Shown: positions 13,091 through 19,530 of the stretch, in pieces
How positions within the stretch are numbered: the first letter of the stretch is position 1
How the letters are laid out: the number at the start of each line of letters is the position of its first letter
IMG/VR virus record: IMGVR_UViG_3300044491_002161
Coordinates: 1-21,379 of that record
Length of the DNA stretch: 21,379 nt
Strand: one strand, 5' to 3'
Source: a virus
The notes under the pieces: generated by a model
Database searches by the model: none
Seen by the model: the letters and a program-made list of their open reading frames with translations, nothing else
What the model was told of the DNA's origin: nothing
Made by a program: the position numbers and the translations under genes

Positions 13091-13745
13091 TGATTGCGAT
13101 CTATGGCATGACAACATAAAACACCGTTGGGTGTTTAATAAACTAGAAGTTGCAGTACGTTGTGGATACACAGCAGGTCCTGTACCCGTGTTACCACCTG
13201 TGGCAGGATACTATTGTCTGCGACCTATTTACAATCTAATAGGAATGGGCATAGGTGCTAGACGTGTGTATTTGGACACTGTAGATAATGATGTAGTTTA
13301 CAAGGATTCATATCCTAGTTCATTTTGGTGTGAATGGTTTGACGGTCCACATTACAGTATAGATTATGAATGGAAAAGAGGCAAATGGAAACCTGTGTTT
13401 GCTACACAGGGTTTTAACACACCAGAGAATATAGTACAGTTTGAACGTTGGATAAAAATTGATCCACCAGACATTCAACTTTATGGTTTTATAGATGACC
13501 TCAAAGACAACAAAGTGCTGAACATAGAATTCAAAGGTGACAAAGTTTTAGAAATACATCTACGGCATGGGAACATTAATGGAGACTGGTATGGTTTAGA
13601 TGCTAAAGAAATTATCCCTATTTGGCAAAACACACCAGAAACAGTTAAAACAAATTATCAAGCACAAGGATATAAATTTATCAGCAGACCTGCAGATACA
13701 TTAGGTTGGGTAGAAATTGAAAGAATAGGATTTTATTACAGATGA
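13053..13745 (+). CDS. Unknown phage protein, possibly ATP-grasp-like
   Basis: Starts at 13023, 13026, 13047 and 13053 are all in frame; 13053 (MKKSEEDWW) is chosen because it leaves the smallest overlap, giving about 230 residues. The protein is rich in tryptophan (for example DDCDLWHDNIKHRWVFNKLE). A glycine-rich string, RPIYNLIGMGIGARRVY, near residue 60 is followed by FWCEWFDGPHYSIDYEW. The arrangement of a KL-containing helix, a nucleotide-loop-like segment and E-x-H near the C-terminus (KVLEIHLRHG) recalls an ATP-grasp fold, which is a weak inference. Proteins of this type are widespread in phages, with unknown roles. Confidence 0.65.
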   Translation: MKKSEEDWWHQPDDCDLWHDNIKHRWVFNKLEVAVRCGYTAGPVPVLPPVAGYYCLRPIYNLIGMGIGARRVYLDTVDNDVVYKDSYPSSFWCEWFDGPHYSIDYEWKRGKWKPVFATQGFNTPENIVQFERWIKIDPPDIQLYGFIDDLKDNKVLNIEFKGDKVLEIHLRHGNINGDWYGLDAKEIIPIWQNTPETVKTNYQAQGYKFISRPADTLGWVEIERIGFYYR

Positions 13746-13933
13746 TGATACTAGGATATATACTTACAATGGTGTTTATAGATGTACAAGGTAATGTACA
13801 AGGTAAAGCACTAAATTACTATATAACACGCCAAGAGTGTCATGCTGATGTAGTAGAAAAAGAATTACAAGCACAACCTGGAATAGGTTACGTTTGTTTA
13901 GAAGATACATCAAATACAGGAGAAAAAATATGA
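13742..13933 (+). CDS. Small protein with hydrophobic N-terminus
   Basis: This 63-residue protein overlaps the previous stop (ATGA). Its first 14 residues (MMILGYILTMVFID) are hydrophobic and may be a signal peptide or a short membrane anchor. The rest is polar with two cysteines (QECHADVV and GYVCLED) that could pair by a disulfide if the protein is exported. No family is recognised. It overlaps the glutaredoxin gene start by four bases, so it is probably in the same transcript. Confidence 0.55.
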   Translation: MMILGYILTMVFIDVQGNVQGKALNYYITRQECHADVVEKELQAQPGIGYVCLEDTSNTGEKI

Positions 13934-14498: not shown

Positions 14499-16403
14499 AT
14501 GGCGTGTAGTATAGGGATAGGCACTGTTGTAAGTTTGGCTTCTATGGGTCATACCTTAATGGGTGGCGGAGTTGCTAATGCAGGTGCTAGTGTAAGTAGT
14601 AAACTAGCAGGAATAGATGGTCCTGCAGGTGAGATGACAAAAGCAATCAGTAAAGGTGTTAGTTTTGCAAATGATGCCTCAGTTCCAACATTTACTTCAT
14701 CTGGTTTAAACAGTATGTTAAGTGGAGGTGCCGCTGACTTTGTAGGCAATGGCAGTTTAGTAGGCAAGGTAGGAGAAACTTTTCAAGGCACCCTTGGCAG
14801 TGGAAGTTTTGCTGATGCACTAGGAAGTCATACAGGTACACTATTTGGTGCTGGTCCGTTGGAGGCATTTCAAACTATCAGTAATGCAGATGGTTTTGCT
14901 GAAGTCAGTAAAATTATAGGTCCTGAAGTAGACTTTGCACTAAACAGTAGTTTTGGTAGTTCAGTCAGTGCTTTACAAGGAATCATACCCACGGGTGGCA
15001 CAAACTTTTTAGGTGAAGCAATAGCAGACTTTCAAGGAGTTGTAACCAACGGTTTAAGCAGTATTGAAAGTTTTGTCAGTGGTGCAATGGATACAATAGG
15101 TACTGAATTATCTGCACTGGGTGAACTTTTTAATGTTGATGATATAACAAACTTTGGAAATCCAGGACAATTTGTTAACAATGTTACCAAAGCAGGCGGC
15201 GCCGGAATAACAGGAATAGAAGATGCTTTAGTAGAAGCAGGGTTAGATACTAATTCATTTGGATTGTCTAGTAGTGTTTTCAACAACGATCTTAACAATG
15301 TGCTATCTGGTATTACTGGTTCTGAACTGATTGAAAATGCAGGTAAAGTTTTGAATTATACAGGTGATGTAACTGGATTTACAAGTATGGCAGACTTTAG
15401 TGATTTTGCAAAAGTTATGCCAAAAACATTGGCAACAACAAAATACAATGGTTTTGATGGATTCAGAGAGGCTCTTGCAAAAGTAGATCTAGGACAAATT
15501 GCAACTCCTGAAAATTTAGGCAAGTTAATTAAGAGTGTGGCCACAGTAAGTCTTCCAACAATAATGAATAAAATTGATCTACCAGTAGATGGTAATGCAC
15601 TTGCACAAATTACACAGGACTTTTTAGGTGGCAGTGGTACAGGTGGAAGCATTACTCTTGTGGATATGATAGGTAGTATGGGAGGTGTTGGTATAAACAA
15701 CAACAGCCAAGCATTTATAAATGCCTATGCCGCATTGAAACAAACTGGTGAACTAAATGCATTAGAAACAAAAGTAAACAAATATGACAAATTGTTTAAT
15801 GGTGATTATGGAGATGTTACAGGTATAAGTTTTACTGATCCTGATACAGGAATAGAACATGTAACAATGGATAGTTTTGTATCAGCAGTAAATGGACAAG
15901 TCGATTCAGAACTATCAGGAATAAACAGCAGAGCAAGTGCAAACAGTGTATTAAGCAGTGGTCTTTCAACACTGAAAGGACTGTGGAATAACATGCAGAA
16001 AAAGATAAGTGATGAGATTACGTTCCAAGGCAAAACAGATCTTCAACTAGATTCAAGAAACAGTGCAAAAGAAAATGCATACTTCTTCCAACAGAGTTTA
16101 GACAGTTATGCTAATGATCCAACAAAATCTTCTTTGATTACAGGCATGGTAGATGCCGCAATAAACAACGGAGATGTTGGTGGAGAATACATGCGAGTTG
16201 CGGTAACAGAACTACAGAATCAAAGAATAACAGAACCAAATGGTATTATATGGCGTAGTGCTAGACTAGACACAGGTACTCCACCTGAAGAAGATACATC
16301 AGATCAAGTGCCACTTGGAGCAAGAAGGTTCTCAGGAACTTACAATCAAGAAACTGAAAAGTTAGTTAACATCAATGGTATAACTTACGTATTAAATTTA
16401 TAG
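14499..16403 (+). CDS. Large glycine/serine-rich tail or baseplate protein, 634 aa
   Basis: This 634-residue protein begins three bases after the PAAR stop. The N-terminus has a small hydrophobic glycine-rich stretch (MACSIGIGTVVSLASMGHTL). Residues about 30-480 are rich in Gly, Ser, Ala, Asn and Thr, with repeating short patterns such as GSFADALGSHTG and GLSSIESFVSGAMD, which resemble extended or beta/helical fibrous structure. The C-terminal 120 residues become charged and helical. No lysozyme or peptidase motif is seen. Position after PAAR and before the end of the tail cluster suggests a baseplate, tail-hub or tape-like virion protein. I cannot name the family. Confidence 0.75.
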   Translation: MACSIGIGTVVSLASMGHTLMGGGVANAGASVSSKLAGIDGPAGEMTKAISKGVSFANDASVPTFTSSGLNSMLSGGAADFVGNGSLVGKVGETFQGTLGSGSFADALGSHTGTLFGAGPLEAFQTISNADGFAEVSKIIGPEVDFALNSSFGSSVSALQGIIPTGGTNFLGEAIADFQGVVTNGLSSIESFVSGAMDTIGTELSALGELFNVDDITNFGNPGQFVNNVTKAGGAGITGIEDALVEAGLDTNSFGLSSSVFNNDLNNVLSGITGSELIENAGKVLNYTGDVTGFTSMADFSDFAKVMPKTLATTKYNGFDGFREALAKVDLGQIATPENLGKLIKSVATVSLPTIMNKIDLPVDGNALAQITQDFLGGSGTGGSITLVDMIGSMGGVGINNNSQAFINAYAALKQTGELNALETKVNKYDKLFNGDYGDVTGISFTDPDTGIEHVTMDSFVSAVNGQVDSELSGINSRASANSVLSSGLSTLKGLWNNMQKKISDEITFQGKTDLQLDSRNSAKENAYFFQQSLDSYANDPTKSSLITGMVDAAINNGDVGGEYMRVAVTELQNQRITEPNGIIWRSARLDTGTPPEEDTSDQVPLGARRFSGTYNQETEKLVNINGITYVLNL

Positions 16404-16410
16404 GTATTAT

Positions 16411-16770
16411 ATGGAATGGGAAGACTTTAAAAAATTACATGAAAACCCTGGTTTACAATCAGATGATAGACTTTGGGAATATGACAATGATGGTTCACAA
16501 ATATATCAATTAAAGTGTGGATTTGGTTTAAAAACACTGTGGGACGGTGGTCGTGCTTATTGGGAAAAAAATTTTAATCCAGATCTAAAGTATGCAAATG
16601 AAATACATTTTGCAGTTAAAGGACACTTAATACCCAGCACTTGGGATCAACAATCAATAGATAGTATGGTCAATCAATACATCAAAAGACTTTGGGGAAA
16701 CTGTGAAAGAATGGTGTATTGCAAGGATAAATTTGAAAAATTATGGAATGACCGCTGTTTTAGTAATTGA
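16411..16770 (+). CDS. Unknown protein, 119 aa
   Basis: This 119-residue protein follows the structural gene by seven bases. It is rich in aromatic residues (MEWEDFKKLHENPG, DRLWEYDND, LKTLWDGGRAYWEKNF, IKRLWGNCERMVY). It has three cysteines, the last four residues from the end. No membrane segment or motif is seen. It is the last gene before the tmRNA locus. A small virion or accessory function is possible. Confidence 0.68.
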   Translation: MEWEDFKKLHENPGLQSDDRLWEYDNDGSQIYQLKCGFGLKTLWDGGRAYWEKNFNPDLKYANEIHFAVKGHLIPSTWDQQSIDSMVNQYIKRLWGNCERMVYCKDKFEKLWNDRCFSN

Positions 16771-16789
16771 CTTATGTTAAAATTCATGT

Positions 16790-16797
16790 TATAAATA
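16790..16797 (+). promoter_or_regulatory. Perfect T4-type late promoter TATAAATA directing the tmRNA
   Basis: TATAAATA (16790-16797) lies in the 30-base gap after the preceding stop codon. By T4 geometry the transcript would begin at about 16803; GGTAAAC at 16801-16807 is the start of the acceptor piece and pairs with GTTTATC at 16928-16934 in the coding piece. Transcription would thus start right at the 5' end of the RNA. This is the best evidence that the virus controls the tmRNA as a late gene. Confidence 0.78.
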
Positions 16798-16864
16798 TAA
16801 GGTAAACGTTGAAGCAAGTTGAAAAGTATACTGGACCCGGGGGCGGTACCCGGCATCTCCACCA

Positions 16865-16885
16865 ATAATTTTTCTACAGTTTTTT
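16865..16885 (+). other. Excised internal spacer of the permuted tmRNA precursor
   Basis: These 21 bases join the CCA end of the acceptor piece (16862-16864) to the first base of the coding piece (16886). In known permuted tmRNAs this segment is removed by RNase P and 3' processing to give two pieces. Here it is AT-rich and ends in a run of T. The short length fits an excised loop. Confidence 0.75.
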
Positions 16886-16969
16886 GGGGATGAAATAGGA
16901 TCGACAGGTATTATATAGGCAAGTGGAGTTTATCGGAGGCGAACGCGATATAGTCGCAAAACTATAAAT

Positions 16970-17014
16970 GCAAACGATAATTTTGCATCTGAAGAGTTAC
17001 GCCTAGCGGCGTAG
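16970..17014 (+). other. tmRNA tag reading frame, A-NDNFASEELRLAA stop
   Basis: The resume codon is GCA (16970-16972). Translation then reads AAC GAT AAT TTT GCA TCT and so on to TAG (17012-17014), giving the 14-residue tag ANDNFASEELRLAA. The NDNFA start is typical of alphaproteobacterial tags, and the LAA end is the usual ClpXP degron. An upstream GCA (16956) was rejected because it meets a stop after three codons. The inner part (SEELRL) looks unlike tags I know and may be specific to the virus. Confidence 0.9.
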
Positions 17015-17127
17015 TTCTACGGGGTTGGCAACTTACCTGGCAACAGAAAAGTTGCACTTTACTAAGGATAAAATATCCTAGGACCAAATAGGATAATAGG
17101 GTCAAATAAGCAAACAAAGGAAAAAGC

Positions 17128-17388
17128 ATGGCTAGAGGCAAAAGATCAAGTGGAAATAATTATACTTCTCGAGGCGAACGTAGAAACGTTGCTAAAGCAA
17201 TAGTAAAAGCCAATAGAAGAGACTACATTGAAAACAGAGGAATAGAAAGATTAGCCAATCAACTAAAAGCCTGGAAACGAGGTAGACGTGTTAGTGTTAC
17301 TATTGCTAATCCAGATAAAAATAATACTAAAGAACGTTTCATCAAAGTAGATGGTAACACGGCTTTTAGAACACAACAAGGAAAATAA
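17128..17388 (+). CDS. Small basic protein after tmRNA, unknown
   Basis: This 86-residue basic protein has a good ribosome binding site (AAAGGAAAAAGC) before ATG 17128. The N-terminus MARGKRSSGNNYTSRGERRN is arginine-rich, followed by a helical segment (NVAKAIVKANRRDYIENRG and LANQLKAWKRGRRVSV) and a short beta end. It looks like an RNA- or DNA-binding protein. It sits 23 bases after the tmRNA, within a ribosome-related block, so RNA binding is the more attractive guess. It does not match SmpB by eye: the SmpB core and its C-terminal tail are absent. Confidence 0.72.
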   Translation: MARGKRSSGNNYTSRGERRNVAKAIVKANRRDYIENRGIERLANQLKAWKRGRRVSVTIANPDKNNTKERFIKVDGNTAFRTQQGK

Positions 17389-17389
17389 T

Positions 17390-17701
17390 TTGATAGAAAA
17401 TGACATCATGGAGAAAGTGGTCAAGAACTTAGAAAATGTTTATGATCCTGAAATGCCAAGTGTTAGTGTTATACATTTGGGCCTCATATACGACATCAAA
17501 GTGACAGACACAGTTGTAAAAATTGTACACACACTGACTTCTCCTTTTTGTCCTTTTGCAGATCAAATTGTTGCAGATATTAAAAACGCAGGTTTAGAAC
17601 AAACTGGTGCGAGTGATTGTGAAGTTGAAACCACTTTCACTCCACCTTTTACTATGGACATGGTTCCAGAAGAAACAAAACTGATTATGGGATGGTATTA
17701 A
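17390..17701 (+). CDS. MIP18/SufT-like (DUF59) Fe-S assembly protein
   Basis: This is a protein of about 103 residues if started at TTG 17390, which has AAGGA just upstream; ATG 17408 lacks a ribosome binding site, and ATG 17351 would overlap the previous gene by 38 bases. The order of motifs fits DUF59: a helix, then VYDPEMPSVSVIHLGLIYDI (family pattern YDPE...DLGLIY), then HTLTSPFCPFADQIVADI with the conserved T-x-x-x-C-P cysteine, then EVETTFTPPFTMDMVPEETK. Family members (SufT, PaaD, MIP18) help deliver Fe-S clusters to target proteins. A phage copy could redirect host cluster assembly or serve a phage Fe-S protein, which is inference. Confidence 0.85.
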   Translation: MIENDIMEKVVKNLENVYDPEMPSVSVIHLGLIYDIKVTDTVVKIVHTLTSPFCPFADQIVADIKNAGLEQTGASDCEVETTFTPPFTMDMVPEETKLIMGWY

Positions 17702-17711
17702 GGAGATAATG

Positions 17712-18386
17712 ATGAATACAATTACATACAGTCATGGATATGACGAAGGACTGAGAAAGTTTATGTTGAACATGTTTCAACACACTTCATTAGGACTAGC
17801 ACTCAGTGGTATAGTCGCATACTTTACATATGCAAGTGGATTAATTTTTACACTAATGACTGGCCCAATGATGTGGGTTACAATGTTAGCACCACTAGGA
17901 ATGATATTTTGGTATGCTAGTGCAGGACAAAATTGGGGACTGTCTAAAACAAAAAACTTTTATTATGCTTTTACTGCCGTAATGGGTATAGGTTTAAGCA
18001 CATTGTTTGCAGTTTATACAGCCTACAGTTTAGTACAGGTATTTTTTATCACCAGTGCCACGTTTGCAGGTGCAAGTATCTATGGATACACAACAAAAAA
18101 AGATTTGACTGCATTTGGAAGTTTTTTAGTTATTGGATTGATAGGTATTATTATTGCTAGTATTGTTAACATTTTTCTTGCAAGTAGTGGATTACATTTT
18201 GCAATAAGCATTATAGGTGTAATTATTTTCACAGGACTTACAGCCTGGGACACACAAAGAGCAAGAGATATATATTATTCAAATGGTGGTGATGAAAGAT
18301 ATGGTGTACAATTTGCATTAAGTTTATACCTAAACTTTATAAACTTATTTCAAATGTTACTTGCACTACTAGGAAACAGAGAATAA
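17712..18386 (+). CDS. Bax inhibitor-1 family (YccA/YbhL-like) membrane protein
   Basis: This protein of about 224 residues has seven hydrophobic segments and little else, the TMBIM/Bax inhibitor-1 layout. Segments begin near residues 20, 44, 79, 105, 140, 158 and 197. The family motif near the C-terminus is visible as TAWDTQRARDIY. ATG 17712 is preferred over the ATG at 17709 because it leaves six bases after AGGAG. Bacterial members such as E. coli YccA sit in the inner membrane and can inhibit the FtsH protease. A phage copy could protect proteins from FtsH or change membrane permeability, which is inference. It joins the next gene by one base. Confidence 0.9.
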   Translation: MNTITYSHGYDEGLRKFMLNMFQHTSLGLALSGIVAYFTYASGLIFTLMTGPMMWVTMLAPLGMIFWYASAGQNWGLSKTKNFYYAFTAVMGIGLSTLFAVYTAYSLVQVFFITSATFAGASIYGYTTKKDLTAFGSFLVIGLIGIIIASIVNIFLASSGLHFAISIIGVIIFTGLTAWDTQRARDIYYSNGGDERYGVQFALSLYLNFINLFQMLLALLGNRE

Positions 18387-18387
18387 T

Positions 18388-19530
18388 ATGGATCCTAAAA
18401 TCAGTTTTATTTTAACCAACGAAGTTAAAAGACAAATGGAAACTGTTGAACTTATAGCAAGTGAAAACTTTGCCAGCGAAGCAGTGATGGATTTGTGTGG
18501 AAGTGTGTTTACTAACAAGTATGCAGAAGGTTACCCAGGCAAACGTTATTACAACGGTTGTAAGCAAATGGACGAAATTGAAAACCTAGCCATTGAACGT
18601 GTAACTGAACTATACAAATGCCAATTTGCAAATGTTCAACCTCACAGTGGTGTTAATGCTAACACTGCCGTATATCAAGCATTCATGACTCCGGGCCAAT
18701 GCATTCTAGGTATGGACCTCGCCAGTGGAGGTCATTTAAGTCATGGTGCGCCACCTACACTAAGTGGTAAAGTTTATAAGTCAGTTACTTACGGTGTACA
18801 CGATGATGGCTATATTGATTATGACGAGGTTGAAAAACTTGCGAGATTACATAAACCGCAAGTGATTGTCGCTGGTGCAAGTGCTTATCCAAGAGAGATA
18901 AACTGGCAAAGTTTTCGCTATATTGCTAATATGGTTGGTGCTAAATTGGTTTGTGATATGGCACACTACAGTGGATTGATAGCAGGAGAAGTATATCCTA
19001 ATCCATTACCTTATGCTGATGTTGTTACTTCAACAACACACAAAACACTACGTGGACCTAGAGGTGGAATGATACTGTGGAATGATCCTGACTACAAAAA
19101 GAAAATCAACAGTGCAATTTTTCCAGGTACTCAAGGTGGACCGTTAATGAATATTATTGCCGCAAAAGCACAGTGTTATTATGAAGCACAACAACCAGAG
19201 TTTAAACAATATGCAAAGCAGGTTATACTTAATGCACAGGCTATGTGTGAGGTTTTTGCAGACAAAGGATTCACGGTACAAACAGGTGGCACTGACAGTC
19301 ATGTGATATTACTGAATCTAAGTGACAACAAGTACAGTGGAAGAGAAGCCGCAGACATACTAGAAGATAATGGTATTACTGTGAACAAAAATGGTGTACC
19401 AAATGATCCAAGAAACTTTATAGAAACAAGTGGTATTAGGATAGGTACTGCCGCAGAAACAACACGTGGTTTAAAAGAAAAAGAGTTTAAAAGTATAGCA
19501 CATAAAATTTGTAATCTATTAGGAGAATAA
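18388..19530 (+). CDS. glyA: Serine hydroxymethyltransferase
   Basis: This 380-residue PLP enzyme converts serine and tetrahydrofolate to glycine and 5,10-methylene-tetrahydrofolate, which feeds thymidylate and purine synthesis. Motifs are ELIASENFAS (substrate), NKYAEGYPGKRYYNG, the PLP-binding histidine and aspartate in CDMAHYSGLIAG (D190, H193), and the Schiff-base lysine K219 in STTHKTLRGPRGG. The C-terminal TSGIRIGTAAETTRG is present. It is about 35 residues shorter than E. coli GlyA (417), losing the last C-terminal segment and a few N-terminal residues, but no catalytic residue appears missing. Phages carry this gene rarely; it complements the ribonucleotide reductase and glutaredoxin in the same window. 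A weak AGGAAAC precedes the ATG. Confidence 0.95.
   Translation: MDPKISFILTNEVKRQMETVELIASENFASEAVMDLCGSVFTNKYAEGYPGKRYYNGCKQMDEIENLAIERVTELYKCQFANVQPHSGVNANTAVYQAFMTPGQCILGMDLASGGHLSHGAPPTLSGKVYKSVTYGVHDDGYIDYDEVEKLARLHKPQVIVAGASAYPREINWQSFRYIANMVGAKLVCDMAHYSGLIAGEVYPNPLPYADVVTSTTHKTLRGPRGGMILWNDPDYKKKINSAIFPGTQGGPLMNIIAAKAQCYYEAQQPEFKQYAKQVILNAQAMCEVFADKGFTVQTGGTDSHVILLNLSDNKYSGREAADILEDNGITVNKNGVPNDPRNFIETSGIRIGTAAETTRGLKEKEFKSIAHKICNLLGE

Follow-up and report, generated by a model that had tools for sequence, protein, structure and literature searches.

Phage genes in the 21,379-nucleotide stretch of viral DNA analysed here (the window) surround an RNA gene that a preliminary description had read as a permuted, two-piece tmRNA with its own tag. 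Is this gene a complete tmRNA, does it belong to the virus, and what would a phage gain from it?

Anatomy and structural conservation of the tmRNA gene

The sole ARAGORN call in the window is a permuted tmRNA (tmRNA*) at 16772–17105 on the + strand, with the tag ANDNFASEELRLAA. Two Rfam covariance models match on the same strand. RF01849 (alpha_tmRNA) aligns over its full length (model positions 1–355) to 16763–17058 with 137.5 bits and an E-value of 6.5e-38, and RF04321 (tmRNA_permuted) aligns to 16803–17014 with 123.2 bits. The scores exceed the respective gathering cut-offs of 50 and 47 bits and place the gene among the permuted tmRNAs. The preliminary description had proposed the alpha_tmRNA search as the check on its reading, to be given up if no match was found; the match is strong, and the description proved right on all main points. 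The order of the gene is permuted, with CCA (16862–16864) followed by a spacer, and then by GGGG starting at 16886. The gene and the element preceding it are composed of the following parts:

16767–16797, + strand: promoter-like element TTGACT-N17-TATAAATA, recognized from the sequence and from a conserved slot in viral copies
~16803–16864, + strand: acceptor (tRNA-like 3′) piece, delimited by the RF04321 and RF01849 alignments and by covariation
16865–16885, + strand: spacer (intervening segment) of 21 nt without an ORF, read from the sequence
16886–~17058, + strand: coding piece, delimited by ARAGORN and Rfam (Rfam end; the ARAGORN end is 17105)
16970–17014, + strand: tag frame from the resume codon GCA to the stop codon TAG, encoding ANDNFASEELRLAA (ARAGORN coding part 199–243)

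The acceptor piece contains the 5′ strand of P2, the T-arm, the 3′ strand of the acceptor stem, and the encoded CCA. The coding piece is composed of the 5′ strand of the acceptor stem (GGGGAUG), a D-like loop, the 3′ strand of P2, the tag frame, and a terminal conserved CUGGCAACAGAA segment. The best estimate of the tmRNA 5′ end is ~16803, the first base of the RF04321 match. The 3′ end differs between the tools, the Rfam match being shorter than the ARAGORN call. All seven pairs of the acceptor stem are formed (GGGGAUG/CAUCUCC), including a wobble of the G3-U70 type; the alanine-type G-U and the 21-base spacer had both been described correctly.

The tag frame starts with an alanine resume codon, and its product ends with a hydrophobic AA before the stop codon. 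The ends of the tag, ANDN...LAA, are constant, and its middle varies, with ANDNFAHEDYALAA in L123, a 6.5-kb viral contig from a different metagenome, and ANDNFAHEEYALAA in L122, a contig from another metagenome than the window. Unusually long tags of 29 residues occur in the viral tmRNAs of L076, L091, L114, L326, and L341 (e.g. ANDNALSNVTFVDFSAPVTAVNEDFALAA).

Viral loci were gathered by a conserved D-arm motif, which is present in at least 120 IMG/VR stretches. The copies, from records that are fragments, were parsed by regular expressions, which miss divergent copies, and most of the parsed loci are read by ARAGORN as permuted tmRNAs. The alanine-type G-U at pair 3, the G3-U70-type identity element for alanyl-tRNA synthetase, is present in 88 of the 88 parsed viral copies. 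Variation in the acceptor stem at pairs 5 and 6 leaves them complementary in all but two of these 88. At pair 5, the window has a compensatory A-U for the U-A of L123, its closest relative. Among 33 diverse viral copies, covariation with few mispairs extends over the acceptor stem, the T-arm, and P2, where the exchanges include A-U/G-C/C-G and U-A/C-G. The P2-type helix proposed earlier to join the two pieces is thereby borne out. The compensatory pairs in the acceptor stem, P2, and T-arm indicate that the RNA structure is under selection. A chance resemblance to tmRNA is ruled out by the Rfam scores together with the covariation among viral copies. A crude test comparing own with swapped duplexes at the 5′ end of the acceptor piece gave 26 of 48. 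The energy of single-strand folding is unremarkable (z = -1.22), as calculated by a program that cannot model a two-piece, pseudoknotted RNA.

Proposed role of the tmRNA during infection

It is established for tmRNAs that the RNA is processed into two pieces, alanylated, and bound by SmpB, that it tags stalled nascent chains, and that it releases ribosomes. The two-piece tmRNA gene of the window is complete, permuted, and alphaproteobacterial in type, it belongs to a phage, and it would probably serve ribosome rescue during infection with the help of host factors. A single transcript would start from the sigma-70/late-box promoter just upstream of the gene. The transcript would be cleaved by host tRNA-processing enzymes at two sites, behind CCA and ahead of GGGG, with loss of the 21-nt spacer; pairing in P2 and in the acceptor stem would keep the resulting pieces together. 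Once charged with alanine and bound by host SmpB, the RNA would rescue ribosomes that have stalled on broken mRNAs in the infected cell and add ANDNFASEELRLAA for host proteases. We infer that the most likely benefit to the phage is rescue under conditions of heavy mRNA decay in the infected cell.

SmpB (PF01668), which the preliminary description suggested seeking in the virus, had no match in 20 other, related viral records, which reach up to 183 kb and are possibly incomplete; 10 of 14 control bacterial genomes were positive. A self-sufficient viral trans-translation module, with an SmpB of its own, was thus not found in these 20 records, and host SmpB is presumably used.

It is unlikely that the tmRNA serves mainly to tag host proteins for ClpXP, freeing amino acids or removing factors, rather than to rescue ribosomes for phage translation. 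The substrates of tmRNA are determined by stalled ribosomes and not by protein identity, and the sequence bears no sign of specificity. The tag is similar to ordinary alphaproteobacterial tags, RLAA ends included. However, the tag has kept its degron-like LAA C-terminal end, and host protein tagging is one of the options proposed by the authors of the study of the Methylophilales phage Melnitz (PMC9004378).

Inhibition of tmRNA by a phage-type fragment has a precedent (PMC4131195, PMC11915505), and the window RNA could likewise act as a decoy, titrating SmpB or blocking trans-translation in the host; this has been reported for the RNA of mycobacteriophage DS6A, which consists of the tRNA-like domain only. 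Both are tmRNA-derived RNAs of phages, and the lack of SmpB matches in the 20 viral records is in line with a decoy. However, the DS6A RNA is without a tag frame, whereas that of the window is complete, from resume codon to stop codon, and is accompanied by the conserved 3′ segment; the tag frames of relatives of the window gene are varied but likewise intact. None of this would be required of a decoy. The retention of the tag frame makes a decoy less likely, and we consider it very improbable.

Viral origin and relation to known tmRNAs

The immediate neighbors of the tmRNA gene in the window are:

14499–16403, + strand: 634-residue phage protein, function unassigned; its L123 counterpart (96% identity) is directly followed by the tmRNA
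16411–16770, + strand: 119-residue ORF between the 634-residue gene and the tmRNA, missing at the equivalent position of L123
17128–17388, + strand: 86-residue protein of the phage lineage, downstream of the tmRNA, with 91% identity to its L123 counterpart and 94% to that of L122

The stop codon of the 119-residue ORF overlaps the -35 box of the promoter-like element. The upstream part of the window encodes an exonuclease, a tail-spike-like protein, ribonucleotide reductase subunits, and a PAAR protein. Downstream, the 86-residue protein is followed by a PF01883 iron-sulphur assembly protein, a Bax1-I membrane protein, and a serine hydroxymethyltransferase, which are consecutive at 17351–19530. 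Counterparts of PF01883, Bax1, and GlyA are present in the viral contigs L046, L049, L068, and L110, and T4-like Aeromonas phages carry a GlyA homolog.

In L123, nrdB, the PAAR gene, the 634-residue gene, the tmRNA, the 86-residue gene, PF01883, and Bax1 follow each other in the order of the window, with 52–98% identity. L122 matches the right-hand side of the window, and the order tmRNA-86 aa-PF01883-Bax1 is common to all three. Of the other loci fetched, the 57 closest in sequence to the window tmRNA are all viral, and the first bacterial locus comes only after them. The placement of the tmRNA among phage genes, as originally described, is corroborated by the matching genes on both sides of the tmRNA in L123. 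A host-virus chimera with the tmRNA on its host side, which the preliminary description had named as a possible pitfall, is ruled out by the synteny with L123 and L122. A recent pickup of host ssrA, as a transduction remnant or as host sequence in a chimeric contig, is suggested by the alphaproteobacterial tmRNA family and by the host-like neighbors (the PF01883 protein, Bax1-I, and serine hydroxymethyltransferase), but is largely refuted and extremely improbable, since the gene order recurs in contigs from other metagenomes, the host-like neighbors occur in four further viral contigs, and both the promoter and the beginning of the acceptor piece conform to the viral type.

The window gene resembles alphaproteobacterial ssrA (RF01849; e.g. 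Caulobacter and Candidatus Pelagibacter) in its permuted order, alanine G-U, T-arm, D-loop, and ANDN...LAA tag. In contrast, the host acceptor piece has a 5′ hairpin, which is absent from the viral copy, and the viral copy has a viral-type promoter. Two loci labelled as Pelagibacter have the tag ANESYAIAA. No close relatives of the tmRNA, the 634-residue protein, or the 86-residue protein were found in isolated phages among the phage records searched. The source of the window is an uncultured, probably marine phage, with a probable T4-like (Kyanoviridae-related) affinity and a probable alphaproteobacterial host.

A survey from 2022 reported tmRNAs in 402 phages, with 133 unique structures, of which 53 were predicted to be two-piece and 50 of these were marine or aquatic; a two-piece tmRNA was published for phage Melnitz and related pelagimyophages (PMC9004378). 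The window gene therefore adds to a known class, and the earlier view that a permuted tmRNA is unusual in a phage is not supported, as such genes are published for marine phages and abundant in IMG/VR. As in the window, the tmRNA of the T4-like marine phage Melnitz is permuted and of the alphaproteobacterial type. It is preceded by TTGACA-N17-TATAAATA, the same element as in the window, and its tag, ANDNYVPVDYALAA, matches ANDNFASEELRLAA in style although the two differ in sequence. Melnitz differs from the window in its neighbor genes, in a long spacer with an ORF, and in a glutamine riboswitch, of which Rfam found none above threshold in the window. Less expected than the gene itself are the promoter comparison and the genes in the spacers, both of which are properties of the phage group rather than of the window copy alone.

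Promoter and spacer of phage tmRNA loci

In the promoter-like element, TTGACT is located at 16767–16772 and TATAAATA at 16790–16797, with a predicted start at ~16803. TATAAATA coincides with the T4 late box, and TTGAC with a sigma-70 -35 box. Measured from the T-arm, TATAAATA occupies the slot that it has in the window in 47 of 83 viral tmRNAs and in 0 of 96 bacterial ones (background ~0.0025 per slot), and is part of 80 of the 83 promoters with TTGAC at a 16–19-nt spacing at tmRNAs, compared with 3 of 107 elsewhere in the viral contigs, where TATAAT predominates; viral tmRNA copies share descent, hence they do not count as independent events. The comparison points to a promoter common to phage tmRNAs that would combine a sigma-70 -35 box with a T4 late box, and that appears phage-specific in the loci sampled. 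TATAAATA is not clearly over-represented before the other ORFs of the viral contigs (rank 7 of 56 permutations), and its role as a late promoter is therefore unproven. A late-only promoter was not adopted, given this result and the presence of the -35 box at 17 nt. The idea of one promoter serving both early and late infection would fit the sequence, but is unproven. The promoter of the Melnitz tmRNA was called early by its authors (PMC9004378).

The spacers of viral tmRNAs are longer than those of bacteria (median 86 nt versus 34 nt), with 33 of 83 viral but only 2 of 99 bacterial spacers reaching at least 100 nt. ORFs of at least 35 residues are present in 25 of the 83 viral and 2 of the 99 bacterial spacers. 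Viral spacer ORFs of at least 40 residues number 17, compared with 3.8 expected by shuffling (maximum 10 in 200 shuffles). The 21-nt spacer of the window has no ORF.

A family of 64-residue proteins (MEIIWHILLTVC...) is represented by 79 usable loci in the viral contigs L272–L351. In 27 of these, the gene lies exactly within the tmRNA spacer, in the arrangement CCACCA-TAAGGACA...ORF...TGA-TGGGG (e.g. L272:2931–3326 and L327:2932–3313, where the surrounding tmRNAs pass the Rfam models). The other 52 loci are free copies, often positioned just upstream of a tmRNA-type promoter. Purifying selection is similar in nested and free copies, with median dN/dS of 0.18 and 0.17, respectively. In Melnitz, a free copy directly precedes the tmRNA, and a different ORF starts in the spacer. 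The spacer of L123 contains a 47-residue ORF with a hydrophobic stretch. Such small spacer ORFs, unrelated to the family, were observed in L123 (5180–5335), L043, L085, L016, L073, L080, and L352 (Melnitz), some of them conserved between contigs. Some viral spacer ORFs terminate within the coding piece, at a conserved GAAATAG. Elsewhere in the window, a 63-residue ORF at 13742–13933 is similar by eye to the 64-residue spacer family and has no PHROG match.

The consulted part of the 2025 tmRNA database paper describes spacers with a tRNA gene and with a repeat; nested protein genes are not mentioned in that part, which does not prove their absence from the paper. In the literature searched, we found no report of phages housing small protein genes in the discarded spacer of a tmRNA precursor. 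We give an even chance to the possibility that, in this group of phages, the locus of the two-piece tmRNA works as a compound device, in which a promoter that may serve both host sigma-70 and the phage late system is combined with a spacer used as a cassette site for small genes, so that one transcript would yield both the tmRNA and the mRNA of a small protein. The window would then be a member with an empty cassette.

The window adds a representative of an uncultured phage lineage to the marine phages known to carry their own ribosome-rescue RNA, and within viruses the tmRNA gene is under selection for its structure and tag. The comparison makes two ideas testable: that a single promoter drives phage tmRNA expression in early as well as late infection, and that phages accommodate small protein genes in the spacer that is discarded from the tmRNA precursor. 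If the locus is indeed such a compound device, it would be more than a captured host gene.
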